DNA of 64,000 bases from Microbotryum silenes-acaulis (lineage: Eukaryota > Basidiomycota > Microbotryomycetes > Microbotryales > Microbotryaceae). How positions within the stretch are numbered: position 1 is the stretch's first letter; every line of letters begins with the position of its first letter. The stretch is from contig QPFY01000009.1 in the NCBI GenBank assembly GCA_003665825.1, forward strand, positions 1-64,000, given 5' to 3'. The notes under the pieces were generated by a model. The model ran no database searches and had not been told where the DNA came from. It saw only the letters and a list, made by a program, of their open reading frames with translations. Position numbers and translations under genes: made by a program. Below, piece after piece: positions 902-64,000 of the stretch.

Positions 902-1233
902 TGTGAGGAATCCACTCTCCGCTCGGGTCAGGACTTAGGCGCGCGGAGCGAGCCGGGCGCATCGGCCCAGGACTTAGGCGCGCGGAGCGAGCCGGGCGCA
1001 TCGGCCCAGGACTTAGGCGCGCGCGCAGCGAGCCTGGCACATTGGCTCAGCCCCGAGGCTCGCTGGCTGAGGACTTGGGGCGCGCGGCTCCCTTTACTGT
1101 TAGATTCCTATTCATCACTCTTGGCTATAACTACATCGCTGACGTAGTAGAGTTGATCGAATAGGTATGTTGAAATGAGATTCATCACTCTTGGCTATAA
1201 CTACATCGCTGACGTAGTAGAGTTGATCGAATA
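902..1233 (+). repeat. Family A LTR shared by A1 (3') and A2 (5')
   Basis: The LTR begins TGTGAGGAATCC and ends TTGATCGAATA. It is bounded on the left by a polypurine tract and on the right by the primer site GGTTATAAGCCC. Inside are three copies of a repeat of about 40 bp (core GGACTTAGGCGCGCGGAGCG). The 3' end carries a direct duplication of about 55 bp separated by a linker starting GTATGT. One LTR serving two internal regions shows that A1 and A2 are joined by LTR-LTR recombination. Confidence 0.92.
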
Positions 1234-1234
1234 G
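1165..1234 (+). other. Intron-like GT-AG unit at the LTR end
   Basis: This 70-bp stretch starts GTATGT, has GCTGAC (branch-point-like) about 30 nt before its end, and finishes GAATAG. The last 55 bp repeat the LTR sequence just upstream. Removing it leaves the LTR end directly joined to the primer site. It recurs at 4113-4182, 11478-11547 and 17746-17815, and on the minus strand in A4, A6 and the solo LTR at 32532-32762. It is missing from other A LTRs. Splicing is inferred, not shown. Confidence 0.6.
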
Positions 1235-1251
1235 GTTATAAGCCCACGAGC
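1234..1251 (+). other. Primer binding site of A2 (anticodon-arm type)
   Basis: GGTTATAAGCCCACGAGC directly follows the LTR. Its complement contains GGGCTTATAACC, the shape of a tRNA anticodon arm with loop CTTATAA (anticodon UAU, Ile). It lacks the TGG of a site pairing with a tRNA CCA end. Drosophila copia similarly uses an internal fragment of a tRNA as primer. The tRNA identity is inference. Confidence 0.65.
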
Positions 1252-3767
1252 TACCAGCCCCGCCGCTTGAAATTTTTCCCTCGAGCCCAGCCACTCGAGC
1301 CGCCCCAGCCCATCGCACCATCGCAGCATGGACAGCTCCCCCGCCCCGCCTTCGCCCCCCAGGGACATCAGCTCCCCTGACCCTTCGATCAGCGTGCAAA
1401 TCGCCACGCTACAGGCACAGCTTGCCGCTCTACAGGCCTCACAGCCCCCTGCCGCCGCCGCCGCCTCCCCGCCCGTCACTGCCACGCAGGCAAACACCGC
1501 CACCGCATCAAAAGTCGTGTTCCCCAAGCACGCTCGCCTTGACGGCCCTAAGTCGTTTACAAACTGGTTACGTCAACTCCGTCTCGCGCTTCCAAATCAA
1601 GCCCGTGGTTACGTTCTTGACGGTGTCATTCCCCCGACGTGGACGGCCGACCAGCTTGCCGCCCGTGACGACGCCCGCGCGTGAAATCATCGTTGGCTCG
1701 ATCGACTCAGCCGACGTCTCAGCCACCCTCGACACCATCCCCAGCGACGACCTGTCGGCACCACGCATCTTCGCCGCACTCAAGGCTCGTTTCGCACCGG
1801 ACGACGCCACTCGTACCCTCGAGTTGTTCGCCCGCCTTTGGGACTTCAGGAAGATGCCTGCCTCCGTCGAGGCGTACGACACGTGGCTCCGTGAATACAT
1901 GTCGATCGCGCAGGAAATCCGCGACGCCAAAACCTCGCTCAACGACGTGCTCGCCACTCACGTGCTCGCCATGGTCCCACCCTGCCTCGACAGCTTCCGA
2001 CTCACGTTCACGGACGAGCAGCGCAACCAACGCGACCTCCCGGAACTCACGACGCTGACGGATCGCATTCGCATCCAGCTTCGCTCGGCGGGACTCTCGT
2101 CATCGCACTCGGCCATGCTCGCCACCGCCTCCCCTTGTCCCGCCTGCCGCGCCCCCGGCCACCGTCTGCGCGACTGCACCTCACGGGCGACACACCCGCC
2201 CGCCGGCCCCTGCCGCCGCTGCCACAAGAAAGGTCACTGGGCCCTCGACTGCAAGCACCGGGGCGAACAGAAACACACCGGCGACGACAACCAGGACGAC
2301 ACGTCTCTCCCCGCCGCTCAACAGCCTAACATCGGCTATTTCGCCTCCTGCCTGTTCGCTCGCCGGCAACTCCCGACTGACGCCTTTGTAGTCGACTCGG
2401 GCGCCACGGCACACATGGTCGCCGATCGCTCTCTATTCACGGCTTATCGCCAGACGGCGCACACCAAGATCGGCGGCATCGCCGGCGGTATCACGGCCAT
2501 TGGTATGGGGGACGTAGCGTTCGTTGCCAAGACCGGACATCCGATCACGCTGCGTGGCGTTCTGCACACGCCGGGCCTCCACGTCAACCTCCTCTCTGTT
2601 TCTCGCCTCTGCGACACCGACCGCGTTCGACTCGCCTTCACCAGCGACGGCATCGACATCGCCAAGGACGGCCAGGCCATTGCTCACGGTACCAGGGTTA
2701 ACGACGGTCTCTACCTTTTGGACGCGGATCACACCAAGTGTCAGCAGCTTGCCCTTCTCTCGCGTTCTGAGTCTACCGTGCCCCTGCTTACCCTTCACCG
2801 CTGCCTCGGCCATCTTGCCCCATCCTCTATACAGAAGATGATCGCCGCAGGTTTGCTGGACGGGTTTGGGGCCGGGTACAGTGACAAAGACGTAGAGGAG
2901 TTTGTTTGCAATGCTTGCCTTGGTTCCAAAGGCCACCGTCTTCCTTTTCCCGACTCTGAGTCGCATTCCCCCGAGAGACTCGGCCTCGTGCACAGCGATG
3001 TCCTTTCGTTCCCCACTCCGTCCTTGACCGGGAAGCGCTACCTTGTCACATTTCTTGACGACCACTCTCGCAAACTCTGGGCATACGCGATCGATCACAA
3101 AAGCGACGTCTTCCCGACCTTCCAGACTTGGCTCGCCGAAGTGGAGTTAGAGACGAACGCGCGTTTAAAAACCCTTCGCACTGACAACGGCGGGGAGTAC
3201 CGATCGAACGCATTCACGGAGTTCTGCAAGTCCAGGGGCATTCGTCGTCAATACTCTATCCCCTACACACCTCAGCAAAACGGTCGTGCCGAACGTGTCA
3301 ATCTCTCCATTGTCGAGGGCATCCTCGCCCTCCTTGCTGACTCCCATCTGCCGGCCACCTTTTGGGATGAAGCGGCTGCGTACTTCGTTTATTGCAAAAA
3401 CAGGTGCTCACACTCAGCTTTGGCCAAACAGACTCCAGAATCCGTTTGGAACGGCCGACGCACCACCACCACCGCCCTCCACCCGTTCGGCTGCGCGGCC
3501 TGGCTCACGGTCGCGCCGGACCTTCGCAGCAAGCTCGACCCCAAGGCCGCGCGCGTGATCTTCACCGGTTACGACCTCGCCTCCAAGGCTTTCCGTTTCT
3601 TCGACCATTATACCAACAAGGTTGTGATTGGCCGAAATGCCACCTTCCTCGACGACGACTTCCCCGGCCTCCCAATCAACACGCCCGTCGATGTGGACAA
3701 CACCGAACGCCAGTTCGTCATTCCCGCCGACACGCCCGCCCCCGCCGTCAAGACGAGGACCCCACTA

Positions 3768-3873: not shown

Positions 3874-3886
3874 ATATCAGCCCCTC

Positions 3887-3891: not shown

Positions 3892-4181
3892 TGTGAGGAA
3901 TCCACTCTCCGCTCGGGTCAGGACTTAGGCGCGCGGAGCGAGCCGGGCGCATCGGCCCAGGACTTAGGCGCGCGCAGCGAGCCTGGCACATTGGCTCAGC
4001 CCCGAGGCTCGCTGGCTGAGGACTTGGGGCGCGCGGCTCCCTTACTGTTAGATTCCTATTCATCACTCTTGGCTATAACTACATCGCTGACGTAGTAGAG
4101 TTGATCGAATAGGTATGTTGAAATGAGATTCATCACTCTTGGCTATAACTACATCGCTGACGTAGTAGAGTTGATCGAATA
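3892..4181 (+). repeat. A3 5' LTR
   Basis: TGTGAGG...GAATA with two copies of the 40-bp repeat, and the intron-like terminal duplication with linker GTATGTTGAAATGAG. Confidence 0.93.
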
Positions 4182-4182
4182 G
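4113..4182 (+). other. Intron-like GT-AG unit in the A3 5' LTR
   Basis: GTATGT at 4113, CTGAC branch-like motif at about 4157-4161, AG at 4181-4182; 70 bp. The segment from about 4128 to the end copies 4058-4112. Excision would leave the LTR end next to the primer site unchanged. Confidence 0.6.
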
Positions 4183-4275
4183 GTTATAAGCCCACGAGCT
4201 ACCAGCCCCGCCGCTTGAAATTTTTCCCTCGAGCCCAGCCACTCGAGCCGCCCCAGCCCATCGCACCATCGCAGC

Positions 4276-7200
4276 ATGGACAGCTCCCCCGCCCCGCCTT
4301 CGCCCCCAGGGACATCAGCTCCCCTGACCCTTCGATCAGCGTGCAAATCGCCACGCTACAGGCACAGCTTGCCGCTCTACAGGCCTCACAGCCCCCTGCC
4401 GCCGCCGCCGCCTCCCCGCCCGTCACTGCCACGCAGGCAAACACCGCCACCGCATCAAAAGTCGTGTTCCCCAAGCACGCTCGCCTTGACGGCCCTAAGT
4501 CGTTTACAAACTGGTTACGTCAACTCCGTCTCGCGCTTCCAAATCAAGCCCGTGGTTACGTTCTTGACGGTGTCATTCCCCCGACGTGGACGGCCGACCA
4601 GCTTGCCGCCCGTGACGACGCCGCGCGTGAAATCATCGTTGGCTCGATCGACTCAGCCGACGTCTCAGCCACCCTCGACACCATCCCCAGCGACGACCTG
4701 TCGGCACCACGCATCTTCGCCGCACTCAAGGCTCGTTTCGCACCGGACGACGCCACTCGTACCCTCGAGTTGTTCGCCCGCCTTTGGGACTTCAGGAAGA
4801 TGCCTGCCTCCGTCGAGGCGTACGACACGTGGCTCCGTGAATACATGTCGATCGCGCAGGAAATCCGCGACGCCAAAACCTCGCTCAACGACGTGCTCGC
4901 CACTCACGTGCTCGCCATGGTCCCACCCTGCCTCGACAGCTTCCGACTCACGTTCACGGACGAGCAGCGCAACCAACGCGACCTCCCGGAACTCACGACG
5001 CTGACGGATCGCATTCGCATCCAGCTTCGCTCGGCGGGACTCTCGTCATCGCACTCGGCCATGCTCGCCACCGCCTCCCCTTGTCCCGCCTGCCGCGCCC
5101 CCGGCCACCGTCTGCGCGACTGCACCTCACGGGCGACACACCCGCCCGCCGGCCCCTGCCGCCGCTGCCACAAGAAAGGTCACTGGGCCCTCGACTGCAA
5201 GCACCGGGGCGAACAGAAACACACCGGCGACGACAACCAGGACGACACGTCTCTCCCCGCCGCTCAACAGCCTAACATCGGCTATTTCGCCTCCTGCCTG
5301 TTCGCTCGCCGGCAACTCCCGACTGACGCCTTTGTAGTCGACTCGGGCGCCACGGCACACATGGTCGCCGATCGCTCTCTATTCACGGCTTATCGCCAGA
5401 CGGCGCACACCAAGATCGGCGGCATCGCCGGCGGTATCACGGCCATTGGTATGGGGGACGTAGCGTTCGTTGCCAAGACCGGACATCCGATCACGCTGCG
5501 TGGCGTTCTGCACACGCCGGGCCTCCACGTCAACCTCCTCTCTGTTTCTCGCCTCTGCGACACCGACCGCGTTCGACTCGCCTTCACCAGCGACGGCATC
5601 GACATCGCCAAGGACGGCCAGGCCATTGCTCACGGTACCAGGGTTAACGACGGTCTCTACCTTTTGGACGCGGATCACACCAAGTGTCAGCAGCTTGCCC
5701 TTCTCTCGCGTTCTGAGTCTACCGTGCCCCTGCTTACCCTTCACCGCTGCCTCGGCCATCTTGCCCCATCCTCTATACAGAAGATGATCGCCGCAGGTTT
5801 GCTGGACGGGTTTGGGGCCGGGTACAGTGACAAAGACGTAGAGGAGTTTGTTTGCAATGCTTGCCTTGGTTCCAAAGGCCACCGTCTTCCTTTTCCCGAC
5901 TCTGAGTCGCATTCCCCCGAGAGACTCGGCCTCGTGCACAGCGATGTCCTTTCGTTCCCCACTCCGTCCTTGACCGGGAAGCGCTACCTTGTCACATTTC
6001 TTGACGACCACTCTCGCAAACTCTGGGCATACGCGATCGATCACAAAAGCGACGTCTTCCCGACCTTCCAGACTTGGCTCGCCGAAGTGGAGTTAGAGAC
6101 GAACGCGCGTTTAAAAACCCTTCGCACTGACAACGGCGGGGAGTACCGATCGAACGCATTCACGGAGTTCTGCAAGTCCAGGGGCATTCGTCGTCAATAC
6201 TCTATCCCCTACACACCTCAGCAAAACGGTCGTGCCGAACGTGTCAATCTCTCCATTGTCGAGGGCATCCTCGCCCTCCTTGCTGACTCCCATCTGCCGG
6301 CCACCTTTTGGGATGAAGCGGCTGCGTACTTCGTTTATTGCAAAAACAGGTGCTCACACTCAGCTTTGGCCAAACAGACTCCAGAATCCGTTTGGAACGG
6401 CCGACGCACCACCACCACCGCCCTCCACCCGTTCGGCTGCGCGGCCTGGCTCACGGTCGCGCCGGACCTTCGCAGCAAGCTCGACCCCAAGGCCGCGCGC
6501 GTGATCTTCACCGGTTACGACCTCGCCTCCAAGGCTTTCCGTTTCTTCGACCATTATACCAACAAGGTTGTGATTGGCCGAAATGCCACCTTCCTCGACG
6601 ACGACTTCCCCGGCCTCCCAATCAACACGCCCGTCGATGTGGACAACACCGAACGCCAGTTCGTCATTCCCGCCGACACGCCCGCCCCCGCCGTCAAGAC
6701 GAGGACCCCACTAGTAAGGTCGGCGCACATGGACGTCTCATCCTCTCTTGATGATTCTGCCATGAGCGCCGTTGACGTGGCCCCAGGGTACACTGGCGGA
6801 TCCTTACTTAATTCTACAGATATCAGCCCCTCGCCGTCCCCGTCGCTTGTCCCGCTTTCGTCGCCCGCCACGTCCTCGGCCGGAGGACCGTCCCTCGATG
6901 ACTCGGACGACCCGCTTGACCTCCTCAACTCCAACACCGCGGTTCGCCTCAACCTGATGGACGTACATCGATCCGACGACGACACCCTGGTGACGCCCGC
7001 ACCCGCCATTGCCCCCGCTGAACAGCCCTCCGATGACGACTCCCCTGATGAGATCGATTTCCTCTCTCGCCACCACCGCGCCTTCATCGCCACAGACGAC
7101 GACGACCCCACCCTCGACGCCATCGAGCCCGTCAAGTCGATTACTAGCGATCCTCAGACCTGGCGCGAAGCAATGTCCAGCGACGAGCACGACATCTGGG

Positions 7201-8993
7201 CTCAGGCTGCCGCCGCCGAGTTCACCGCCATGCGCGACGACTTCAAGGTGTTCACCATCGAGCCTCGATCCTCCGTACCACCGGGCGCCACTATCGTCAC
7301 CTCCAAGTTCGTCTGGAAGACCAAACGCGACGCACGCGGCGAAGTCACGGGGCACAAGGCACGTCTCGTAGCGCAAGGTAACCGACAACGCGACGGCATC
7401 GACTTCTCGGAGACTTTCGCACCCGTCGCCCGGTTCTCCTCCATTCGCTGCCTCCTTGCCCTCGCCGCTGCCAATGGTTACCACGTTCATCAGGCCGACA
7501 TCGACAAGGCTTACCTCCACGGCGAGCTCGATCACGATATCTGGATGACGACGCCACGAGGTTTCGACTTCCCAAGTGATAAGATTCTCCGCCTGCGGCG
7601 CTCAATCTACGGTCTCAAGCAGGCCGGTCGCATCTGGAATCGCCACATTGACACATCACTCAGGAGTCTCGGGTACAAGGCAACGGGCACTGATCACTGC
7701 ATTTACTCTCACATTGATGATCAGCAACGGCCCCATTATATCGCCTTGTATGTCGACGATCTCCTCATTGTCAGCCCCGCCCTCGACGAGATCGAACGCG
7801 TCATCTCCGGCCTCGAACAACGATACGGCGTCAAACGACTCGGCCCCGCGGAATACATCCTCGGCATCCAAATCCGCCGCCTGGACGACGGCTCCATTGC
7901 CCTATCCCAGGAACGCTACATCATGGACGTGCTCGCCCGGTTTCACTTCGACACCACGACACGCGGCGCTACGGTGCCAATGACGCCCGGCCTCTCGCTC
8001 ACGGCAGTTCCGGGTCAAGGAACGGAGCGCATTCGATCGTGGTACCTACAAGCCATTGGCTCCCTCCTGTACATTTCCCTTGGCACTCGACCCGACATTG
8101 CCTTCGCCGTCTCGTACTTGTCCCGGTTCGCCAACAACCCTGGCCGCCGTCATTGGATTGCCGTCAAACACGTCCTTCGCTACCTTCGCGCCACGTACCG
8201 CGATGAGCTACTCTACGCCCGCGGTCCAGCCAAAGTTACGGGTGTGGTTGGGTATTCCGATGCGAACTGGGGTGCCTGCGTCGACACGTCCATCTCCACA
8301 ATGGGCTTCGTCTTTTACTTGGCCGGCTCCGCCGTCTCTTGGTCATCGAAGCGTCAGACTCGGGTGGCGGATTCCACCACTGATGCCGAATACCTCGCCT
8401 TGTCGCACGCTGGTAAGGAAGCGATTTACCTTACGCAACTCCTCTCCGAGCTCCACGTTCGCCCGATCGATGCAGCTCACATCTTCACCGACAACGAGGC
8501 CGCGGCCGCCGTCGCTCACGACCCCGTTCGCACCTCCGGCACTCGACACATACGCCTCCGCGAGCATTTTGTCCGCGACATGGTCAACCGAGGCGATATC
8601 TCCCTCTCACACGTTGGCACAGCGGACATGGTTGCGGACCTATTCACCAAAGCGCTGGGTCCCAAGATTTTTGGTATACATTGCTATGCTCTAGGCCTCC
8701 GGACGCGGCACCCACGGCTCAAGTCTACCTCGCGTTCGCGTGGGGGGGGGTGTGAGGAATCCACTCTCCGCTCGGGTCAGGACTTAGGCGCGCGGAGCGA
8801 GCCGGGCGCATCGGCCCAGGACTTAGGCGCGCGGAGCGAGCCGGGCGCATCGGCCCAGGACTTAGGCGCGCGCAGCGAGCCTGGCACATTGGCTCAGCCC
8901 CGAGGCTCGCTGGCTGAGGACTTGGGGCGCGCGGCTCCCTTACTGTTAGATTCCTATTCATCACTCTTGGCTATAACTACATCGCTGACGTAG
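4276..8993 (+). CDS. A3 Gag-Pol polyprotein (copia), start out of frame by one base
   Basis: The family start ATG is at 4276. A run of five C at about 4303, where the other copies have six, puts it one base out of the main frame; otherwise the frame is open to 8993. In family numbering: CCHC knuckles near residues 270 and 295, protease DSGATAHM near 356, integrase HHCC from about 489 to 526, DDE near 556, 618 and 654 (35 residues between the second D and E, as usual), RT YVDD near 1158, RNase H SDANWGA near 1326 and DAEY near 1369. The polyprotein would make capsid, protease, integrase and RT/RNase H. With nine G in the polypurine tract the frame runs on through the 3' LTR for 81 codons; copies with ten G stop at TGA within the first five LTR bases. 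The C deletion may be real or a homopolymer error. Confidence 0.9.
6714..6819 (+). other. 106-bp intron-like island in A3
   Basis: Same sequence as 3768-3873. If it were spliced, the product would end 45-50 codons later in an Arg/Pro-rich tail (stop at about 6957), giving Gag-PR-INT without RT. If retained, the full Gag-Pol is read. Confidence 0.5.
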
Positions 8994-9299
8994 TAGAGTT
9001 GATCGAATAGGTATGTTGAAATGAGATTCATCACTCTTGGACTTAGGCGCGCGGAGCGAGCCGGGCGCATCGGCCCAGGACTTAGGCGCGCGCAGCGAGC
9101 CTGGCACATTGGCTCAGCCCCGAGGCTCGCTGGCTGAGGACTTGGGGCGCGCGGCTCCCTTACTGTTAGATTCCTATTCATCACTCTTGGCTATAACTAC
9201 ATCGCTGACGTAGTAGAGTTGATCGAATAGGTATGTTGAAATGAGATTCATCACTCTTGGCTATAACTACATCGCTGACGTAGTAGAGTTGATCGAATA
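8751..9299 (+). repeat. A3 3' LTR, enlarged by a partial duplication
   Basis: A full LTR runs from 8751. At about 9040 the second terminal repeat breaks off (CACTCTTGG) and joins a further LTR body (ACTTAGGCGCGCGGAG) that continues to GAATA at 9299. This is tandem partial LTR duplication, probably by unequal recombination. Confidence 0.88.
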
Positions 9300-9304
9300 G
9301 CCGT

Positions 9305-11460: not shown

Positions 11461-11616
11461 TAGAGTTGATCGAATAGGTATGTTGAAATGAGATTCATCA
11501 CTCTTGGCTATAACTACATCGCTGACGTAGTAGAGTTGATCGAATAGGTATGTTGAAATGAGATTCATCACTCTTGGCTATAACTACATCGCTGACGTAG
11601 TAGAGTTGATCGAATA
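11218..11616 (+). repeat. A2 3' LTR with two intron-like units
   Basis: TGTGAGG at 11218. The end repeat is present three times, separated by two GTATGT linkers (units from 11478 and 11548). The LTR ends at GAATA (11616) and is joined head to head, without a spacer, to an inverted A LTR lacking its first 14 bases. This is a recombination junction, not an insertion: no target duplication is visible. Confidence 0.88.
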
Positions 11617-11764
11617 TCTACTACGTCAGCAATGTAGTTATAGCCAAGAGTGATGAATAGGAATCTAACAGTAAGGGATCCGCGCGCCCCAAGTCCTCAG
11701 CCGATGCGCCCGGCTCGCTCCGCGCGCCTAAGTCCTGACCCGAGCGGAGAGTGGATTCCTCACA
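11617..11764 (-). repeat. Truncated A LTR (minus)
   Basis: This is an inverted A LTR with one 40-bp repeat, missing its terminal 14 bases at the left. Its right end (CTCACA) meets B sequence at AAAGCG. Intact B has ACACAAAAGCG here (55370-55380), so the join may rest on CACA microhomology. Confidence 0.85.
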
Positions 11765-14637
11765 AAAGCGAAGTCTTCGGCGTGTTCAAGACTTGGCTTG
11801 CCGAGGTCGAGCTCGAGACAGGTGCAATGCTGAAGGTCCTCCGAACCGACAACGGTGGCGAATATTGTTCGAGAGCGTTCACGGAGTTCTGCAAGGCACG
11901 CGGCACCCGTCGACAATACTCTATCCCACGAACGCCTCAACAGAACGGTCGTGCGGAGCGGGTCAATCGGTCCATCGTCGAAGGTGTTCTTGCGCTTCTT
12001 GCGGACGCCCACCTACCCAAGACATTCTGGGAGGAGGCCGCAGCCTATTTCGTATACTGCAAGAACCTGTGTCAACACTCGGCCCTGGACAAGGCAACAC
12101 CGAACTCCGTCTGGCAGGGCGACCGCACCAAAGCCTCGGCGCTTCATCCGTTCGGCTGTGCGGCTTGGCTCACGGTCGCGCCTGAACTTCGCTCGAAACT
12201 TGACCCGAAAGCGGTTCGCGTTCTCTTCACCGGCTACGACCTGGCTTCTAAAGCCTTCCGTTTCTACGACACTACGACAAAGAAGATCATTCTGGGCAGA
12301 AATGCCACGTTCCTTGACACTGAATTCCCCGGGTTACATGGCGACTCCACCGAGCACGACGTCGACACGCACTTCGCCAGCGCTCCCATCGCCGACCTTC
12401 AAGACACTGTCAAGACATGGACCCCACTAGTAAGGTTGGCGCACATGGACGTCTCATCCCCCCTTGATGATTCTGCCATGAGCGCCGTTGACGTGGCCCC
12501 AGGGTACACTGGCGGAACCTTACTTAACTCCACAGATGCCGAATCGTCCTCGTCACCGTCGCCTGCGCCGTCCTCGTCACCGTCTCCTGCGCCGTCCTCG
12601 TCACCGTCGCCTGCGCCATCGCCTGCGCTCTCACCGGCGTTGGCGGCGTCATCGTCACCCTCGGCCTTACCAACCGACTCTGAAGACTCCACCGATCCTC
12701 TCGACCTCATTGGCTCACAGACCCAGGTTCGCCTCGACCTACTGGACATGCACCGCCCGGACTTCAGCACGTACCGCGAGGCCGCATCGGCTGAGGAGTC
12801 GCCCGACGAACTCGACCTCATTGGGCGCCACTCTCGCGATGAATCGCCGGACGAAATTGATTTCCTTACCCGACACCACCGCGCCTTCATCGCAACAGAC
12901 GACGACATCTCTGACACAGAGGCCATTCAGCCAGTTAAGTCTATCACTAGCGATCCACAGACCTGGCGCGAGGCGATGTCGAGCGACAAACGTGAGGTAT
13001 GGGCCAAGGCCGCCACCGACGAGTTCAATTCCATGCGTGATGACTTCAAGGTCTTCACCATCGACGACCGCTCTACGGTACCCGCGGGTGCGACCATCGT
13101 TACGTCCAAGTTCGTCTGGAAAACAAACCGGAACGCACTCGGCGAGATCACCGGCCACAAGGCACGGCTGGTGGCGCAAGGCAACCGCCAACGCGACGGC
13201 ATCGACTTTACCGAAACCTTCGCACCGGTCGCACACTTCTCCTCGATACGCTCACTCCTCGCGCTGGCGGCCACCAACGGCCTGCATGTGCACCAAGCAG
13301 ACATCGACAAAGCCTACCTTCACGGCGATCTCGATCACGACATCTGGATGACGGCACCGCGAGGCTTCGATCTTCCTGGCGACAAAGTGCTTCGCCTGCG
13401 ACGTTCCATCTACGGGCTCAAACAGGCTGGCCGCATCTGGAATCGACACATCGACGCTTCGCTTCGCGACCTCAGTTACACAGCGACGGGCACCGATCAC
13501 TGCGTGTACTCTCGGCTCGACGATCAGCAACGCCCACACTATATTGCGCTGTATGTCGACGACCTTCTGATGATCAGCCCGGACCTGGCCGAAATCGAAC
13601 GTGTCATCTCGGGCCTCGAACAACGCTACGGAGTCAAGCGCCTTGGCCCGGCAGAGTACATCCTCGGCATCCAGATTAGGCGGCTCGACGACGGTTCTAT
13701 TGCCCTGTCCCAGGAACGGTACATCATGGACGTGCTTGCTCGGTTCCACTTCAACACCACAACTCGCGGCACTACAGTCCCGATGACTCCTGGCCTTTCG
13801 CTCACCGCCATCCCGGGTCAAGGCACCGAACAGATCCGGTCATGGTATCTGCAGGCTATCGGCTCGCTCCTTTACATCTCGCTCGGCACCCGCCCCGACA
13901 TTGCCTTCGCCGTGTCCTACCTGGCCCGCTTCGCCAACAACCCCGGACGCCGTCATTGGATTGCGGTCAAGCACGTCCTGCGCTATCTCCGGGCCACGTA
14001 TCGCGACGAACTGGTATATGCTCGCGGCAAGACGCGCATCACGGGTGTGGTAGGCTACTCCGACGCGAACTGGGGGGCCTGCGTCGATACATCGGTCTCC
14101 ACCATGGGCTACGTCTTCTACATCGCCGGATCCGCCGTGTCCTGGTCGTCCAAGCGTCAATCTCGAGTTGCCGATTCCACCACCGACGCTGAATACCTCG
14201 CCCTCTCGCATGCTGGCAAGGAAGGGATATACCTCAGTCAGCTGCTCGAAGAGCTCCATGTCCACCCTGTTGCACCGGCTCACATATTTACTGACAACGA
14301 AGCCGCTGCAGCAGTCGCCCACGACCCTGTCCGCGTCTCTGGCACTCGACACATACGCTTGCGCGAACACTTTGTTCGGGACATGGTGAATCGAGGCGAC
14401 ATTTCTCTCTCGCATGTGGGAACCAGCGACATGGTGGCCGACATCTTCACCAAGGCTCTCGGCCCTAAGGTGTTCTCGACGCACTGCCACGCCCTCGGCC
14501 TTCGCACTCGACACCCGCGGCTTGGGTCTGCCTCGCATTCGCGTGGGGGGGTGTGTGAAGAGTCCACTCTCAGCTCGACAGGGGCGCCTCGGTCGTTGCG
14601 CGCGCCCGCTAGCCCGCCCCCTGCGGTGGGGACTTAG
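11765..14637 (+). pseudogene. Copia family B, element B1: INT core to RNase H, 5' truncated
   Basis: One open frame begins within integrase ([29 protein letters not shown]). It continues through the 106-bp island, a Ser/Pro repeat linker, RT ([24 protein letters not shown]) and RNase H ([21 protein letters not shown]), then a polypurine tract. It reads on into the LTR and stops at 14635-14637. Gag, protease and the integrase zinc finger are missing because the element is cut at 11765 by the A LTR. RT differs from family A mainly at synonymous sites. B3 (53638) supplies the missing 5' part of the family. Confidence 0.92.
12430..12535 (+). other. 106-bp intron-like island in B1
   Basis: GTAAGGTTGG to CTTACTTAACTCCACAG. 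It differs from the A copy at six or seven of 106 positions, although the bases on both sides are unrelated between A and B. Skipping it would open a long Arg/His-rich frame over the RT region. Confidence 0.5.
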
Positions 14638-14881
14638 ACGCGCGCGACTGCCTCAGCACGCCAGCAATTTCGCCCGCGGCTGAGTTAGGGACGTTCATTG
14701 CCACGCGGCTGGGCCTATCCCAGCGCGGGCCTCCTTTCTGTTTCTTAGCTTCCTTCTCATCACTTCTGTTCGACTTGCAACCTCTCCTGACAGTAGTGGT
14801 GATCGTCTCATAGGTACGCTGAAATAAATCACTTCTGTTCGACTTGCAACCTCTCCTGACAGTAGTGGTGATCGTCTCATA
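14554..14881 (+). repeat. B1 3' LTR
   Basis: TGTGAAGAGTCC to GTCTCATA, right after the B polypurine tract. The last 69 bp (14814-14882) form an intron-like unit: GTACGC start, CTCCTGAC branch-like motif, CATAG end, mostly a repeat of the preceding LTR end. B LTRs at 16654 and 53296 lack it. The right flank GGCAG is A sequence. Confidence 0.9.
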
Positions 14882-16653
14882 GGCAGATGGGAGTCAGCAA
14901 GGAGGGCGAGGACGCCCTCGACAATGGAGAGATTGACACGTTCGGCACGACCGTTTTGCTGAGGTGTGTAGGGGATAGAGTATTGACGACGAATGCCCCT
15001 GGACTTGCAGAACTCCGTGAATGCGTTCGATCGGTACTCCCCGCCGTTGTCGGTGCGAAGAATCCTTAAACGCGCGTTCGTTTCTAACTCCACTTCGGCG
15101 AGCCAAGTCTGGAAGGTCGGGAAGACGTCGCTTTTGTGATCAATTGCGTATGCCCAAAGTTTGCGAGAGTGGTCGTCAAGAAATGTGACAAGGTAGCGCT
15201 TCCCGGTCAAGGACGGAGTGGGGAACGAAAGGACATCGCTGTGCACGAGGCCAAGTCTCTCGGGGGAATGCGACTCAGAGTCGGGAAAAGGAAGACGGTG
15301 GCCTTTGGAACCAAGGCAAGCATTGCAAACAAACTCCTCTACGTTTTTGTCACTGTACCCGGCCCCAAACCCGTCCAGCAAACCTGCGGCGATCATCTTC
15401 TGTATAGAGGATGGGGCAAGATGGCCGAGGCAGCGGTGAAGGGTAAGCAGGGGCACGGTCGACTCAGAACGCGAGAGAAAGGCAAGCTGCTGACACTTGG
15501 TGTGATCCGCGTCCAAAAGGTAGAGACCGTCGTTAACTCTGGTACCGTGAGCAATGGCCTGGCCGTCCTTGGCGATGTCAATGCCGTCGCTGGTGAAGGC
15601 GAGTCGAACGCGGTCGGTGTCGCAGAGGCGAGAGACGGAGAGGAGGTTGACGTGGAGGCCCGGCGTGTGCAGAACGCCACGCAGCGTGATCGGATGTCCG
15701 GTCTTGGCAACGAACGCGACGTCCCCCATACCAATGGCCGTGATACCGCCGGCGATGCCGCCGATCTTGGTGTGCGCCGTCTGGCGATAAGCCGTGAATA
15801 GAGAGCGATCGGCGACCATGTGTGCCGTGGCGCGCTAGTCGACTACGAAGGCGTCCGTTGGGAGTTGCCGGCGAGCGAACAGGCAGGAGGCGAAATAGCC
15901 GACGTTAGGCTGTTGAGCGGCGGGGCAAGGGGAGTCGGTGGCGAGCATGGCCGAGTGTGATGACGAGAGTCCCGCCGAGCGAAGCTGGATGCGAATGCGG
16001 TCCGTCAGCGTCGTGAGTTCCGGGAGGTCGCGTTGGTTGCGCTGCTCGTCCGTGAACGTGAGTCGGAAGCTGTCGAGGCAAGATGGGACCATGGCGAGCA
16101 CGTCGTTGAGCGAGGTTTTGGCGTCGCGGATTTCCTTCGCGATCAACATGTATTCACGGAGCCAGGTGTCGTACGCCTCGACGGAGGCAGGCATCTTCCT
16201 GAAATCCCAAAGGCGGGCGAACAACTCGAGGGTGCGAGTGGCGTCGTCCGGTGCGAAACGAGCCTTGAGTGCGGCAAAGATGCGTGGTGCCGACAGGTCG
16301 TCGCTGGGGATTGTGTCGAGGGTGGCTGAGACGTCGGCGGAGTCGATCGAGCCAACGATGATTTCCCGCGCGGCGTCGTCACGGGCGGCAAGCTGGTCGG
16401 CCGTCCATGTCGGGGGGATGACACCGTCAAGAACGTAACCACGGACTTGATTTGGGAGCGCGAGACGGAGTTGACGTAACCAGTTCGTAAACGACTTAGG
16501 CCCGTCAAGACGAGCGTGCTTGGGGAACACGACTTTTGATGCGGTGGCGGTGTTTGCTTGCGTGGCAGTGACGGGCGGGGTGGCGGCGGCGGCGGCGGCA
16601 GGGGGCTGTGAGGCCTGTAGAGCGGCAAGCTGTGCCTGTAGCGTGGCGATTTG
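14882..16653 (-). pseudogene. Defective A element A5, part 1 (gag to INT)
   Basis: Read on the minus strand this is A Gag, protease and integrase up to the catalytic region, where the B1 LTR cuts it. It has two lesions of its own. The whole double CCHC region of Gag is deleted (DSPCPAAQQP joins directly). The protease active site DSGA reads D-stop-RA (TAG at about 15836). It could encode neither a nucleic-acid-binding Gag nor a protease. The left cut coincides with GGCAG of the A sequence; the right cut joins an inverted B LTR. Confidence 0.88.
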
Positions 16654-38105: not shown

Positions 38106-38135
38106 CCCCCCCCCACGCGAACGCGAGGTAGACTT

Positions 38136-38362: not shown

Positions 38363-38415
38363 TATTGCCGCAAGGCACAGATCCGCACGCAGAAAAGACG
38401 CAGCGCGTATCCAAG

Positions 38416-43089
<4,674 letters not shown>

Positions 43090-51200: not shown

Positions 51201-52659
51201 CTGAATATACCCAATCCACCCCAGTGACCAAGCCTTTCTGCACGACGTTCTTGAGTTGCGCAACGGGTAAATGCGCGAAGCGACGGTGCAGAGTCAGCAA
51301 GGAAACTCTGTGAGGGGTGGCAAGGAGGGCATTGGGCATACAGGGTGAGGGTGTGACGTTTAACGCGTACAGGTCATTTGCAACGGCTTGAGCAGTGGCA
51401 ACAACGGTGCCAGAGGAGTTGCTGATCTTGGCGCAGCCGGAGCCAAAGGAGATGCTGAACCCAAGGCGATCCAATTGTCGGACGGACAGCAGGTTGCACG
51501 GCAGGGATGGCACCAAGAGGACATCGGTTGCCACGACGGGGCCAGCTGGAGTCGATATGCGGACAGAGCCACAACCGGTGGAGGGGAGGGAACCGGCAAC
51601 TCCAGCAACAGGCGGGCCGGTGAACGAGCGCAGCGTCGAGAATAGTGAACGGTTGTTGGCCATGTGACGATTTGCACCGGAGTCGAGGAGCCATGCCGAT
51701 TTGGGAAATGGTGACGGAGTGGCAAGGAGACAGGCGGTGAACGTCGTGGGCTCGGGCATCTCGACAACGGCGGGAGAGGCGACGGCTGGGGTACCCTTCT
51801 TACGTCCTCGCGAACTCGCTCCGGTGGAAGCCTTGCGGGCGCGGAAAGCGGCGGCCCAGGCGGTGTCAGGACAATCTCTGAGCCAGTGCAGTTGGCGACA
51901 TGTTGGGTTGGGGCATGGTCCGGGAATGGCACGGTGCTGGGGGGTGGCGACAGCGACAGCGGGAGCTTCAGCCGGACGAGCCTTGATCTCCCGATAGATA
52001 CGGTCGAGGATGTCGGCCGCGGGAGGTAAGGTACCGTATGTGCCCTGAGCATTCACGAAGGTCGTGCGCCATGCGGAGAGGGACGATGGCATCCTCGCGA
52101 GTAGGTGAGACGCAAGCAGGGAATCTGTGGTAACGTTGGAGTCGGCGAGAAGTCGAGAATCGTTGTCAAAGCGATCACGAAACTGGAGGAATGCGTCGGG
52201 GCTGTCGGGCATGGGCTCGGGGCTGAAGAGGCGAGCGACAACGGGTAGGAGGTCGACAGCCGAGACGGCGCCATATTGCATGCGGAGAGCCACCCAAATC
52301 TTGTGGCCGCTGTGGGCGTCACCGAAGTAACGAGAGAGACCGGGAAGAACCATCCGTGGGTCGACGGCGGCGCAGATGGAGGCGCGAGCGTAGTGATCCC
52401 ATAGTGGGACGTAGGACGGGGGCCAAGATGGATGGGGTACACCGGATTGAAGGTATCCGAGGACGTCGGAGGGCAGGCGGGAGCACAGCGTAAGGACCCA
52501 GTCCTGGTAGCCGTTGGCGTCGCGGAGGAGATCAGAGGCAGCGAAGGCTGCGACTTGCGTGGGCGGGCAAGGTGGAGGAACCGCGAGCGTCGTGGCGGGG
52601 CCTACGGACTTGCTGTCCTCGGACGCAGGCGCGGACTTGGTGTCGTCGAGCGCAGACAT
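48277..52659 (-). CDS. C Gag-Pol polyprotein (copia), intact
   Basis: ATG at 52659 (MSALDDTKSAPASED) gives one frame of 1460 codons, with its stop just before the polypurine tract. Gag ends in an atypical knuckle, CPNPTCRQLHWLRDC (CX4CX3HX4C, about residue 247). Protease is WLLDSGANRHM (about 325). Integrase has HRRFAH, CNACLASKAH, LVHVDV, IRSDNGGEF (about 585) and QQNGRVERTN. RT has KGRLVARGDSQR and [10 protein letters not shown] (about 1142). RNase H has [24 protein letters not shown] and DNQGANALTKNP. No frameshift, stop or active-site change is visible. The linker between integrase and RT is rich in SDQG/SDRDS repeats and lacks the 106-bp island of A/B. The second candidate for an active element. 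Confidence 0.95.
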   Translation of the reverse strand: MSALDDTKSAPASEDSKSVGPATTLAVPPPCPPTQVAAFAASDLLRDANGYQDWVLTLCSRLPSDVLGYLQSGVPHPSWPPSYVPLWDHYARASICAAVDPRMVLPGLSRYFGDAHSGHKIWVALRMQYGAVSAVDLLPVVARLFSPEPMPDSPDAFLQFRDRFDNDSRLLADSNVTTDSLLASHLLARMPSSLSAWRTTFVNAQGTYGTLPPAADILDRIYREIKARPAEAPAVAVATPQHRAIPGPCPNPTCRQLHWLRDCPDTAWAAAFRARKASTGASSRGRKKGTPAVASPAVVEMPEPTTFTACLLATPSPFPKSAWLLDSGANRHMANNRSLFSTLRSFTGPPVAGVAGSLPSTGCGSVRISTPAGPVVATDVLLVPSLPCNLLSVRQLDRLGFSISFGSGCAKISNSSGTVVATAQAVANDLYALNVTPSPCMPNALLATPHRVSLLTLHRRFAHLPVAQLKNVVQKGLVTGVDWVYSEEEVRSFNCNACLASKAHALPFTRSQSIASGRLDLVHVDVAQMPRASFGGHRYMLVIVDDYTRKHWCILLTYKSDVFHRLRDWILEVENTTGDRVKTIRSDNGGEFTLRNFVDFCLTKGIRRELTIPYTPQQNGRVERTNRTIKEGILALLYSAGADTRLWAEAARYFVHCKNLMPHAGIRGAIPDTRWHGVAPDVSSLRAFGCRAWHCLPSVKRTDLDPKAVPLIFVGLDDHAKAYRLFDPATRKILLSRNVLFRESEFPALQPVANTHTGDIPLPVAADIYPDQIDHSEPLLVAPPRSLAPRAELPGPAPAASDQGLRRPSPARDIPDQDSRAPPASDQGSPISQTGDHSDRDSPTSCASDQGSSDSAISTPCPSPRPVAPCPLPAPPSPARSESPDPIDLLPRSGDVASLCLAQEFPDDVDAALHSPSPVAYLASGATALLETSPVDPTELIAPARDPPHRRAAMATPQADEWRLAAQAEFDSLSRDFSAFTPIDESLVPADSKVLGSRFVFRTKRDQHGHIKSYKGRLVARGDSQRSGIDFDETFAPVAKFTSIRALLALAAAHGYHVHQADIDKAYLHGKLDTPLYIRVPEGIYMPGKVLQLHRSLYGLRQAGRIWNDEIDSALLALGYVATESDHCVYVRTVGDERHYIALYVDDLLMISPSLPEIERTLQGLEQRYGVKRLGEAEYVLGIQIWRSADGSISLSQEQYLKDVLARFGMSDAHPVATPMQADLRLEVELQPTPFPDRTRYLQAIGSLMYTSTGTRPDLAYTVGYLARFSQSPSATAWGAVKHAFRYLAGTLSHGLRYTRGDPAPLVGYSDCNWGACAMSSKSTMGYTFVFAGAAVSWSSRLQSRVADSTCDAEYLALSHAGKEAIFLRQLFGELGLASSRPVLIYGDNQGANALTKNPVFHARTRHIRLREHFVRDMVSLGDISVQYIATGEMMANIFTKALSRDLFARHRGRLGVCTP

Positions 52660-52784
52660 GCTGAGTCGTGTGGAGCGCCGGGCAAAGCCGGGCGGTGCGA
52701 AGGATGCAAAGTTCGACAAAGGCGGACACGGGAGTGGCCGCGCTGGTAGGTCGTTTGGGCTTATAACCTATGAAGTTACGACGA

Positions 52785-52855
52785 CTGCTCAAGCGGTGGT
52801 AAGGCTCTGATCGACGGACCAAGGAGACCAGACCAAGAAGTTGCTTGTTACACAC
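52785..52855 (-). other. Second intron-like unit in the C 5' LTR
   Basis: Sense strand GTGTGTAACAAGC... to CCGCTTGAGCAG, 71 bp; almost entirely a copy of the preceding LTR sequence. Confidence 0.55.
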
Positions 52856-52923
52856 CTGCTCAAGCACTACAGTGAGTTATGATAGCTAGTAAAGATAAAG
52901 GAAGAAGGAAATGTAGTGCTCAC
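52856..52923 (-). other. First intron-like unit in the C 5' LTR
   Basis: Sense strand CAG, then GTGAGCACTACATTTCC, a pyrimidine-rich stretch, ATAACTCACTG (branch-like) and GCTTGAGCAG; 68 bp. Here only the last 10 or so bases copy the upstream exon; the rest is unique and has the best intron character in the window. Confidence 0.65.
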
Positions 52924-53190
52924 CTGCTCAAGCGGTGGTAAGGCTCTGATCGACGGACCAAGGAGACCAGACCAAGAAGTTGCTTGAGCAGGAGAGAGAG
53001 AAGCGCGGAGCCATTTGGCTCGGGTGAGCGCGCGGCTGGGTCTGCCACCTTTGTCAGGCGCACGGACCCAGCCCAGGAAAGGGAGAGAGCCTAGGTGTGG
53101 AAGGCAGGCCAAAAAGGAGGTAAGATGAGACTAAGAAAAGGAGGCATGATGCGAGAAGGAAACATAAGAGTTTGTCAATCTCACAGAACC

Positions 53191-53295
53191 AGCCAAGTAA
53201 AAGACGAAGCCCATTGTGGAGATGGACGTGTTGACGCAGGCACCCCAGTTCGCATCGGAATAACCAACCACACCCGTAACTTTGGCTGGACCGCG
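53191..53295 (-). pseudogene. A RNase H scrap right of element C
   Basis: Continues 47822-47975 and is cut at CCGCG by the B3 LTR, the same breakpoint seen inverted at 16966/16967. Confidence 0.9.
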
Positions 53296-53608
53296 TGTGA
53301 AGAGTCCACTCTCAGCTCGACAGGGGCGCCTCGGTCGTTGCGCGCGCCCGCTAGCCCGCCCCCTGCGGAGGGGACTTAGACGCGCGCGACTGCCTCAGCG
53401 CGCCGGCGCCGGCGGATTCAGGCGCGCGACCACTAGCCCGCCCCCCTGCGGTGGCGACTTGGACACGCGCGACTGTCTTAGCGCGCCAGCGATTTCACCC
53501 GCGTCTGGGCCTATCCCAGCGCGGGCCCCCTTTCTGTTTCTTAGTTTCCTTCTCATCACTTCTGTTCGACTCTCAACCTCTCCTGACAGTAGTGGTGATC
53601 ATCTCATA
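53296..53608 (+). repeat. B3 5' LTR, without the intron-like unit
   Basis: TGTGAAGAGTCC to CATCTCATA, followed directly by the primer site. Its complement GGGCTAATAACC resembles a tRNA-Ile(AAU) anticodon arm, one base different from family A's site. Confidence 0.9.
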
Positions 53609-53637
53609 GGTTATTAGCCCACGAGCCACCAGCTGGC

Positions 53638-56565: not shown

Positions 56566-56792
56566 TGTTAATCGTATGTCTCGAGAGGGGACTGGATCGG
56601 CAACCAGTAAGTACACGAGACAGAGTACGGGTTGTAAGGGAGTAGTTTGGAGCGTTAGGGGGAAGACTAAAGAGGCACGCAGTGCGAGTGTGCGAAATAT
56701 CTCTAAGTCCAAAGAGAGGTCCAAGCGGCGCGGCTAGCTAGGCGCGGCGCGGATTGGAGATTGATCTAAGCAAGAGTGTATGGAATTCAACA
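56566..56792 (-). repeat. D 3' LTR, without the intron-like unit
   Basis: Inverted TGTTAATCG...ATTCAACA. It has a 19-bp GC-rich expansion near 56733 absent from the 5' LTR. Confidence 0.92.
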
Positions 56793-60253: not shown

Positions 60254-60901
<648 letters not shown>

Positions 60902-61274
60902 TGACGGACTTGCCCGCCTTTCGCCTCGGCGCCTCGCTCCGCGCGTCTTCGCCTCCGCAAGCCTCCACCGCGCCCCCTGTCCCTCGAGCCTCGCTGCATG
61001 ATCCTCGCACCCGGCCTCGTCCCTCGACCGATGTGCACCGCTCGTCAACTTGTCCACATCCCGGTCCGTCTGCCCGTCGTTGCCAGCTTTGCCTACTCTG
61101 CCATGCTCGCCACCACGCGCCTTTGCCTCTTGGCACTTTCACCTCGGCGCCTTTTTCGCCGCCGCGCGCCTTCGCAGCCAAGCCGCCCCCTTGTTCACCG
61201 CCCAGTTTTCGCCTCGGCGCCTCTTTCGCCGCCGCGCGCCTTCGCCTCGGCGCCTTCGCCCTCGCTGCCAAGCC

Positions 61275-61485
61275 GCCCCCCAGTCTTTCGCCTAGGCGCC
61301 TTCGCCTTCGGCGCCTTCGCCCTCGCTGCCAAGCCGCCCCCCAGTCTTTCGCCTAGGCGCCTTCGCCTTCGCCGCCTTCGCCGCCCCCCCCCTCCAGTCT
61401 TTCGCCTAGGCGCCTTCGCCTTCGCCGCCTTCGCCGCCCCCCCCCTCCAGTCTTTCGCCTAGGCGCCTTCGCCTTCGCAGCCAAG
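61275..61485 (+). repeat. Tandem ~53-bp repeats in the F LTR
   Basis: Units built on CCAGTCTTTCGCCTAGGCGC. The 5' LTR has one unit (53 bp) more than the 3' LTR, which accounts for the change in offset between the LTRs from 1914 to 1861. Confidence 0.85.
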
Positions 61486-61960
61486 CCGCCCCCTTGTCTC
61501 CGCCTCCGCGCCAGCCTGCTCAACTCACGCTCGCGCGCCGCCGCCTCCACGCCGGGACTTAGTCAGTCCGCACTCTCCAGCCTAGCCGAGCCAACGCCTC
61601 CGCCTCGCCACAGCCAGTTTGCCACCGCCGACCTCATGACCCATCGGCCATGCAGAACATCGCCCACTCATGATGCCCGCGGTTCGCAACCTGAAGCCTG
61701 TCGTCACGGATCGCCTCACTCAACAACTCTGGATCGTGTAGATAAGTTTCCCCTCGTGTCCGTCGTCCAACACGACACTCCTCAGAGCCTCGATGGTCCA
61801 CTTGGAGTTCGGTCTTGAAGCTTCGCATTGTGTTAGCCCAGTTTGTCTTAGCGCGGCCCTTTGCTGGAACCTCACCCGACTCGCGCGCCCTCGCGCCTCT
61901 CTTCCTCTTCTCTACCGCTTCCCAACATTAGCTAGGCAGCTAATCTTCGGTAGAGAACAG

Positions 61961-62026
61961 GTTAGTTGCAATCACATCCACCGCTTCCCAACATTAGCTA
62001 GACCGCTAATCTTCGGTAGAGAACAG
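61961..62026 (+). other. Intron-like unit in the F 5' LTR
   Basis: GAACAG, then GTTAGTTGCAATCACATCC, CGCTAATC branch-like motif, GAACAG; 66 bp. It is also in the 3' LTR (63822-63887), but absent from the F part of the chimeric LTR at about 35789-35840, where the sequence reads straight through GAACAGATCG. Confidence 0.62.
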
Positions 62027-62194
62027 ATCGTCCAGCCGCACCGTGTCCGTCTCGTCAGACTGCGTCCGTGCCGCCTCACGACTTCTCCCCCCGGCCCGTC
62101 CGTCGCACACTGTAGCCACGTCGACGCTCCGCCAGTAGCCCAAGCGGTCGCTACTCCCAAGTCCGAAACCTTTTCGGCTTCCACTTAACAGGTT

Positions 62195-62638
62195 ATGAGC
62201 CCTGTCCGAACCACCCTGCCCCTCCCCGCCGCACCCGCCGTCTCCGCCGAGCCCACACCCGCTGAGACACGCGACGCTGCCGCCGACGCAACCGCACCAC
62301 ACGCCGACAAAGCACACACGTCTGGTCCTGCCCCCGTCACCCCCACTCTCGGCGCCACCATGGACAAACGCATCGTAGGAACAAGCCTACAAGTCGATCG
62401 TCCGCCGAGAGCCCCACCCCGAGCCAAGCTGCCCGCCGCCGCCTCCCCTGCGCACAACCCTGCCGCAACACGCGACACCGCCGCCAACGCTTCGCAGACG
62501 CCGCCCCTCGCCACTGCACCCGTTCCCCAACCCGTCTACACCATCCGAGCCACGATCATCGAAGAACGCATTACAAGAACACGCCTTCAACCCAATGGTC
62601 CGCCGAAAGCGCCAGCCCTAGGTATGTTCTCCGCCTAA
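62195..62638 (+). CDS. Small F ORF, 147 aa, unknown
   Basis: The ATG lies within the primer site (GGTTATGAGCCC). The product is rich in Pro, Ala and Thr, with two related segments (PTPAETRDAAADAT near residue 20; NPAATRDTAANASQ near 88; TLGATMDKRIVGTSLQ and TIRATIIEERITRTRLQ), so the ORF contains an internal duplication of about 65 residues. No known domain is recognised. It could be a Gag remnant or simply an open stretch; the duplication and GC-ending codons do not prove translation. Confidence 0.45.
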   Translation: MSPVRTTLPLPAAPAVSAEPTPAETRDAAADATAPHADKAHTSGPAPVTPTLGATMDKRIVGTSLQVDRPPRAPPRAKLPAAASPAHNPAATRDTAANASQTPPLATAPVPQPVYTIRATIIEERITRTRLQPNGPPKAPALGMFSA

Positions 62639-62762
62639 CGCTCGTTGCCACGTCGCTTTGCACCCTCGCCTCGTCATGGTCTCCTACACCGGTCACTCGT
62701 CTATGCACACACCACTCGTCAACCCCTTCGTGCCCTTCTGGAAGTGTTCGAACGAGGGGGGG

Positions 62763-64000
62763 TGTTGAATTGCATTCTGTCAAGCCTTCGAACACTTCGA
62801 CATCGGACCGCCGTTTGACGGACTTGCCCGCCTTTCGCCTCGGCGCCTCGCTCCGCGCGTCTTCGCCTCCGCAAGCCTCCACCGCGCCCCCTGTCCCTCG
62901 AGCCTCGCTGCATGATCCTCGCACCCGGCCTCGTCCCTCGACCGATGTGCACCGCTCGTCAACTTGTCCACATCCCGGTCCGTCTGCCCGTCGTTGCCAG
63001 CTTTGCCTACTCTGCCATGCTCGCCACCACGCGCCTTTGCCTCTTGGCACTTTCACCTCGGCGCCTTTTTCGCCGCCGCGCGCCTTCGCAGCCAAGCCGC
63101 CCCCTTGTTCACCGCCCAGTTTTCGCCTCGGCGCCTCTTTCGCCGCCGCGCGCCTTCGCCTCGGCGCCTTCGCCCTCGCTGCCAAGCCGCCCCCCAGTCT
63201 TTCGCCTAGGCGCCTTCGCCTTCGGCGCCTTCGCCCTCGCTGCCAAGCCGCCCCCCAGTCTTTCGCCTAGGCGCCTTCGCCTTCGCCGCCTTCGCCGCCC
63301 CCCCCCTCCAGTCTTTCGCCTAGGCGCCTTCGCCTTCGCAGCCAAGCCGCCCCCTTGTCTCCGCCTCCGCGCCAGCCTGCTCAACTCACGCTCGCGCGCC
63401 GCCGCCTCCACGCCGGGACTTAGTCAGTCCGCACTCTCCAGCCTAGCCGAGCCAACGCCTCCGCCTCGCCACAGCCAGTTTGCCACCGCCGACCTCATGA
63501 CCCATCGGCCATGCAGAACATCGCCCACTCATGATGCCCGCGGTTCGCAACCTGAAGCCTGTCGTCACGGATCGCCTCACTCAACAACTCTGGATCGTGT
63601 AGATAAGTTTCCCCTCGTGTCCGTCGTCCAACACGACACTCCTCAGAGCCTCGATGGTCCACTTGGAGTTCGGTCTTGAAGCTTCGCATTGTGTTAGCCC
63701 AGTTTGTCTTAGCGCGGCCCTTTGCTGGAACCTCACCCGACTCGCGCGCCCTCGCGCCTCTCTTCCTCTTCTCTACCGCTTCCCAACATTAGCTAGGCAG
63801 CTAATCTTCGGTAGAGAACAGGTTAGTTGCAATCACATCCACCGCTTCCCAACATTAGCTAGACCGCTAATCTTCGGTAGAGAACAGATCGTCCAGCCGC
63901 ACCGTGTCCGTCTCGTCAGACTGCGTCCGTGCCGCCTCACGACTTCTCCCCCCGGCCCGTCCGTCGCACACTGTAGCCACGTCGACGCTCCGCCAGTAGC
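62763..64000 (+). repeat. F 3' LTR, truncated by the window edge
   Basis: Starts TGTTGAATTGC after seven G. It follows the 5' LTR closely, lacking one 53-bp repeat, to the position corresponding to 62139. Confidence 0.88.

Follow-up and report, generated by a model that had tools for sequence, protein, structure and literature searches.

Intron-like units in the long terminal repeats of Microbotryum silenes-acaulis retrotransposons are probably spliced and rebuilt at first-strand transfer

Introduction

Introns are expected to disappear from anything that passes through spliced RNA. Penelope-like elements are retroelements that keep introns despite moving through RNA, but they are not long terminal repeat (LTR) elements with strand transfer, and to our knowledge no rebuilding by duplication of the R region is known for them. 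The present analysis concerns the first 64 kb of contig QPFY01000009.1 (contig C9; positions 1 to 64,000 of the forward strand, referred to here as the window) in the 29.85-Mb genome of Microbotryum silenes-acaulis (GCA_003665825.1). The window consists of nested LTR elements, and six LTR families in it, designated A, B, C, D, F, and G, contain short units with splice-like borders; there are seven such units, since family C has two, u1 and u2. The sequences suggest that the units are probably host-type spliceosomal introns inside the LTR, which are spliced yet rebuilt at first-strand transfer.

Drosophila copia and barley BARE1, of the copia superfamily, share with the window elements a Copia-type pol (RVT_2, rve, and Pol_BBD domains in the A and C ORFs; rve and Pol_BBD in the B and D ORFs) together with a short GT-AG intron. 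According to an excerpt of PMC3735527, the BARE1 intron is 104 nt long, splicing in copia and BARE1 takes place inside the coding region and separates Gag from Pol, and the spliced RNA of such elements must not be reverse transcribed. In the window elements, in contrast, the candidate intron is in the LTR, the coding region is untouched, and the spliced RNA is apparently the template. The introns of retroviruses, when removed, leave spliced RNA without gag. Retroviruses such as HIV-1 and foamy virus also have a splice donor near R, and in these two viruses the 5' LTR poly(A) signal can be silenced when U1 small nuclear ribonucleoprotein binds the major splice donor (excerpt of PMC12789967). 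In the present case, however, acceptor and donor would both be internal to the LTR, and splicing would spare the primer site and the coding region. For Ty1, untemplated bases are added at the minus-strand transfer step, and we know of no intron in its LTR. The strong-stop DNA of Ty1 is transferred to the R region of the RNA 3' end (excerpt of PMC1266399), whereas the RNA of a 3' LTR of the kind described here would hold two copies of R and hence two landing sites. Direct repeats near intron borders have been reported in an examination of 213 introns (excerpt of PMC11782384), and none of the titles or abstract openings among the literature matches listed describes a rebuilt intron inside an LTR.

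Structure of the units and comparison with host introns

All seven units are 66-80 nt in length, start with GTNNGY, end with AG, and have a CTNAY motif 15-23 nt before the end. An earlier note on this DNA had listed nine units, all of which were found in place, with GTATGT, GTACGC, GTGAGC, or GTTAGT starts and AG ends and with two units in C (68 and 71 nt); it had also described a CTNAC/CTAAT-like motif, which is present, but nearer to the end than the 20-35 nt that it gave. In six of the seven units the layout is R, followed by a segment n with a short junction j, followed by R', where R' is a copy of the LTR from the probable transcription start to the splice junction. The exception is C-u1, in which the repeated sequence amounts to no more than the final 11 nt of R. 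Unit starts are shared between A and B and between D and F, as had been noticed; the first 13 bases of n are common to D and F, though the R sequences of these families differ, a sharing that we cannot explain beyond common descent or exchange. The n segments of G (38304-38311), D (60348-60355, reverse strand), and F (61965-61972) all contain GTTGCAAT. An external template for n, such as a tRNA, was considered by eye alone, and none is proposed.

In family A, the first R copy (X) extends over 1110-1164 on the forward strand, its opening A being the putative transcription start, and the unit of this 5' LTR follows at 1165-1234, with a last G that is also base 1 of the primer site GGTTATAAGCCC. 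Other A units on the forward strand are at 4113-4182, followed by the primer site, and at 17746-17815, in an LTR with no adjoining primer site whose segmental copy, ending at 29997, has no unit. Missing from the earlier list were A units at 9231-9300 (forward), 11478-11616 (forward; two tandem units of 70 and 69 nt), and 18964-19033 (reverse), together with a B unit at 27149-27217 (forward), which is a segmental copy of the B unit at 14814-14882 (forward). A B LTR without a unit lies at 53186-53608 (forward), and its primer site, GGTTATTAGCCC, starts at 53609. The C element is on the reverse strand: its 5' LTR as far as the unit, with R at its end, is at 52924-53185, followed by u1 (52856-52923; 68 nt, GTGAGC...CAG) and u2 (52785-52855; 71 nt, starting with GTGTGT and composed of GTGTGTAAC and R'). 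The D unit is in a 5' LTR at 60280-60359 (reverse). Those of F are on the forward strand at 61961-62026, in an LTR that extends to 62190 and is followed by the primer site GGTTATGAGCCC, and at 63822-63887 in a second LTR, and the G unit is in a 5' LTR at 38274-38341 (forward), preceded by the first R at 38250-38273.

The distance from the end of the unit to the end of the LTR is 0 in A and B, where the G of the unit's AG doubles as base 1 of the primer site, 9 bp in G, 16 bp in C, 26 bp in D, and about 164 bp in F. The location at the primer-side end of the LTR that had been ascribed to all of the units therefore applies to A and B, whereas in the other four families they are internal, and we read the units as lying within the LTR, in its R-U5 part.

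In a protein search with a CCT-delta exon, which gave 3812 matches, the five organisms named among the 120 listed are fungi (two chytrids at 74%, Pneumocystis at 68%, and two lichen fungi at 68-69%) and the best listed match is at 89%, so that by this comparison the host is probably fungal. For comparison with host introns, frame-keeping GT/GC-AG gaps were sought between the matched exons of five of this genome's CCT chaperonin genes. Of 13 exon gaps, 11 contained a candidate intron and two yielded none; the best candidates are 53-88 nt in length, 10 of the 11 being 65-88 nt, and all 11 have GTNNG[TC] donors (GTGAGT, GTACGT, GTCAGT, GTGAGC, GTGCGT, GTGCGC, and GTTTGT) and nine have CTNAY, but the ranking of candidates, which were predicted from exon matches rather than from transcripts, preferred GT[AGT]NG[TC] and CTNAY, so that this is a likeness and not a blind or independent comparison. 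In the window as a whole, GTNNGY follows 93 of 7407 AGs (1.3%), whereas all five of the unit starts that can be taken as independent (A/B, C-u1, C-u2, D/F, and G) have AG followed by GTNNGY, again not a blind count, as the units were originally chosen by eye. The units resemble the predicted host introns in their donor sites, branch-point motif, terminal AG, and length, and would be U2-type introns. At the sequence level, the view that they are leader introns is well supported by the host-like signals and lengths and by the precise loss of the 68-nt u1 described below; splicing itself is inferred from these splice signals and this loss.

Covariation of R and R' and the variable junction

The start of R' was placed where the copies become alike downstream of the variable j. 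Read in this way, R' begins with A in all six families and, in the upstream R, the 15 nt before this A are pyrimidine-rich (fractions of 0.73 in A, 0.87 in B, 0.93 in C, 0.87 in D, 1.00 in F, and 0.87 in G); such a start is what a copy of an RNA from its 5' end would resemble, the A being the probable transcription start. R and R' are identical in 107 of 126 rows of filled LTRs, those that contain a unit (A 13/20, B 13/13, C 17/20, D 20/22, F 18/25, and G 26/26). When the R/R' distance was compared with 2000 shuffles of R' among copies, it was lower than in all of them in B, C, D, and F, and 6 of 2000 shuffles gave a distance as small in A; G has no variation in R and R', and the two co-vary in the five families that have variation.

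The one or two bases directly before R' (j) are hypervariable. They are G, T, C, or CG in A, G, C, or A in B, T or A in D, and TG, CC, or GC in G; six junction forms are found in C and eight in F, with all four bases at one position in the latter. The j base has 2-4 states per family, and the n + j variants require at least 20 changes by our own count. The base before the first R, however, shows no variation within any family among the filled LTRs (131 of 131), and it is changed in 3 of 66 empty LTRs, each time to G; these three changes probably represent two insertions, and the two B cases may be the LTR pair of a single, segmentally duplicated insertion. Two G 3' LTRs (L097 and L123) have a new j, and their 5' LTRs match the query at 171 of 171 positions.

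Presence and absence of units

Units recur throughout the genome, absences are likewise common in it, and empty copies were found in every family. Four absences that had been pointed out in the window (29996, 35195, 47637, and 53608) were confirmed, as was the lack of the unit from the 3' LTRs of C, D, and G elements whose 5' LTRs contain it, with target-site duplications (TSDs) of GGTTC, GACAT, and GACTT, respectively. The C 3' LTR (47981-48258, reverse) belongs to the same insertion as the LTR at 52785-53185; 16 bp follow the site of the unit and end with TTCATA, beyond which is GGTTC. The D 3' LTR (56566-56792, reverse), from the insertion with the unit at 60280-60359, has 26 bp after the site, ending with TTAACA before GACAT, and also differs from its 5' LTR by a 19-bp indel and one base change. 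The G 3' LTR (42935-43089, forward) is that of the insertion with the unit at 38274-38341.

The C family has a young insertion (TSD CAATC) in which the 5' LTR (L033) has the arrangement u1u2u2 and the 3' LTR (L070) has u2u2, the shared LTR bases being identical at 262 of 262 positions. This element has lost u1 alone and precisely, and the repeat at the borders of u1 that could mediate slippage is only 11 nt; for the other units the precision of removal is ambiguous because their border repeats are longer. C LTRs retrieved with a query containing the unit have u1u2 or u1u2u2, and a gapped-pattern search gave 19 LTRs without u1 after R, of which 11 are empty and 8 have u2 directly after R.

For F, there are 62 LTR ends without a unit genome-wide, and for G, 27 LTRs without a unit among the matches listed, the G lists being the best of 173-174 candidates each, with 40 scored. 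Among the best 40 G 5' LTRs with a unit and primer site, the 3' LTR is filled in 32 (two of these read only at the unit start) and empty in 5, and the partner was not found in 3. The other way round, one G element is empty in its 5' LTR and filled in its 3' LTR and five are empty at both ends, with 11 of the 27 listed empty LTRs left unpaired. TSDs matched in four of the five 5'-only pairs, in the single 3'-only pair, and in four of the five empty pairs; for two 5'-only pairs, with a 5' LTR that apparently begins 8 nt late, just the first base of that LTR was read beside the TSD.

A proposed cycle and its alternatives

The order of the LTR can be written as U3, R, intron (GT, n, j, R', AG), tail, and primer site, with u1 as an extra intron in front in C. 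Transcription would begin at the A that opens the first R, and the transcript of the 5' LTR would lose the whole intron (n and R'), giving R, tail, and primer site, as in an LTR without a unit. At the 3' end of the RNA, U3-R-n-R' would remain unspliced, for example through polyadenylation within R' ahead of its AG; in A and B, where the AG is completed by base 1 of the primer site, a 3' LTR would have the AG only if its flank begins with G. Minus-strand strong-stop DNA made on the spliced RNA would stop where R begins, often after gaining one or two untemplated bases, and would then move to the 3' end. Pairing there with the second R would rebuild the intron as U3-R-n-j-R'-tail, with the sequence of R written over R' and with a new j, whereas pairing with the first R would generate an empty LTR, in which the base before the first R may change. 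Landing on the second R would leave the base before the first R untouched, which matches its constancy in filled LTRs. Unspliced RNA with transfer onto the second R would add one unit and, less surely, occasional copying of the 5' LTR from the 5' end of another, unspliced RNA would account for LTRs that differ within one insertion. Strand-transfer duplication, previously put forward as an alternative to introns, is in this scheme part of the answer and not a rival to them.

We consider it likely, though slightly less so than that the units are introns rebuilt in this way, that this is an intron that replicates via its own removal: a duplication of R around its 5' part would let spliced RNA rebuild it, and the arrangement would have originated in, or spread to, six or more LTR families of a single genome, each overwriting R' from R. 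A likely advantage would be improved expression or the suppression of polyadenylation in the 5' LTR. If this is true, a simple LTR architecture evades intron loss and makes splicing and retrotransposition compatible, while the LTR sequence records each strand transfer (in j), the 5' end of the RNA, and the splicing state of the RNA. First-strand transfer, formation of hetero-LTRs, and intron birth by R duplication could then be read from the genome alone, and one origin for the direct repeats at intron borders would be suggested.

The earlier note had proposed that leader introns are passively kept or lost, unspliced RNA giving filled LTRs and spliced RNA giving empty ones. The intron signals and the precise empty sites are as this model would have them, and the part in which spliced RNA leads to empty LTRs survives in the cycle as landing on the first R. 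However, passive retention via unspliced RNA would expose the base before the first R and let R' drift from R, and it leaves unexplained both the covariation of R and R' and the hypervariable j beside a constant base before the first R in filled copies. In view of the re-formed n/R' junction and of the 107 in 126 rows with identical R and R', the filled copies probably also derive from spliced RNA, through transfer onto the second R; the passive model is too simple, and we regard it as unlikely.

It is also conceivable that there is no intron and that transcription begins at R', with R-n as extra U3 and j as a normal U3/R boundary that collects untemplated bases. This would be the simplest reading of j taken alone, since j is exactly at the start of R', but it offers no route by which R and R' are kept alike, the pyrimidine stretch precedes R and not R', every unit starts with GTNNGY, and u1 is lost precisely; a start at R' is accordingly very improbable. 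We give equally little credence to tandem duplication with slippage in reverse transcription or DNA recombination, which would make the splice-like borders accidental. Such events do occur, as seen in the changes in u2 copy number, the tandem units of A and B, and the segmental copy of an A LTR that has no unit, but slippage predicts neither AG followed by GTNNGY in every family, nor host-like lengths, nor a single hypervariable site, nor the loss of u1 across an 11-nt repeat. Tandem duplication, which the earlier note had also offered, is rejected as the main cause on the basis of the borders, the lengths, and the hypervariable j, and is retained as a second process. Transfer onto the second R without splicing, using strong-stop DNA made from the RNA of empty elements, would produce the same j and R' signatures, and empty elements exist in every family, but the splice signals would then have no explanation and every event would require an empty donor with a matching R haplotype, which makes this route highly implausible.

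Several points weigh against introns that are spliced and rebuilt. Splicing, start site, poly(A) site, and transfer route are all deduced from DNA. Canonical reverse transcription makes equal LTRs, and differing LTRs require the extra second-RNA route. R' could derive from the RNA of empty elements of the same subfamily, not from spliced RNA. Slippage or DNA-level loss is real as a second process: the u2 number differs between the LTRs of one insertion, falling from 2 to 1 (L024/L014, TSD TGGCC) or rising from 1 to 2 (L010/L028, TSD ATTAG), which indicates that slippage or strand-transfer gain also operates, and one A LTR is present in two segmental copies, with a unit at 17746 and none at 29996, so that loss at the DNA level occurs. 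No C LTR with u1 alone was matched at one mismatch or fewer, and splicing of u2 alone could produce one; two of the j variants in G disrupt its CTGAC motif. With respect to the counts, the shuffle of R' keeps the relatedness of the copies, and the rows include segmental copies; among the 13 B rows, one (L183) begins in a stack cut by the fetched stretch, so that its "first R" is R'; the difference between filled and empty LTRs in the base before the first R (Fisher p = 0.036) counts copies and represents about two independent events, and takes only copies with an exact anchor. The searches score 40 candidates, several with queries that contain the unit, and their samples are therefore non-random and their proportions not population estimates.

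Element families of the window

Six open reading frames (ORFs) of the window were examined with Pfam. RVT_2 was found in those of A, C, and a fragment at 32737-34401, and integrase (rve) and Pol_BBD in those of A, B, C, and D. In the A ORF (4161-8990) and the C ORF (48280-52767), the integrase precedes the RVT_2 reverse transcriptase, which is the copia order, and on these two ORFs the elements are Ty1/copia members by domain order; the B and D ORFs given to Pfam have an integrase and no reverse transcriptase, and the G ORF (38080-40284) spans only the gag-pre-integrase and Pol_BBD part. The TSDs of the LTR pairs of C (GGTTC and, in the further insertion, CAATC), D, and G are of 5 bp, as in Ty1/copia elements. 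Directly after the LTR in families A, B, C, D, and F is the primer site GGTTAT[ATG]AGCCC, which resembles a copia half-tRNA primer; a genome search with the 13-base anticodon-arm pattern GGGCTNATAACCC gave no matches.

The G LTRs (38128-38350 and 42935-43089) start with AG and end with TT, not TG..CA, and are associated with a TGG-type primer site, TGGTAGCGTC. The listed G copies are near-identical and spread over many large contigs, while the matches of other families look, by eye, more clustered and are often on short contigs. Seven consecutive Gs, a probable polypurine tract, directly precede the 3' LTR in the C and D elements, upstream of 48258 and 56792, respectively, on the reverse strand. 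The two F LTRs (60849-62190 and 62763-64000) are of about 1.34 kb with GC-rich tandem repeats, and the F copy at 60849-64000 looks non-autonomous, because only about 0.57 kb separates them. Elsewhere in the genome, eight same-orientation matches to the C LTR (G000:C3:2337-44954; L016 and L035-L038) recur at a spacing of about 6.06 kb, and the flank GGTAGTGCGTGGAG is common to L035-L038 and likewise to L025 and L026 on contig C51; the recurring LTRs and common flank point to a tandem array of about 6 kb. Within the nest of the window there is also a large duplication, of 11617-18964 and 23952-31146, the two copies of which are mostly 99-100% identical.

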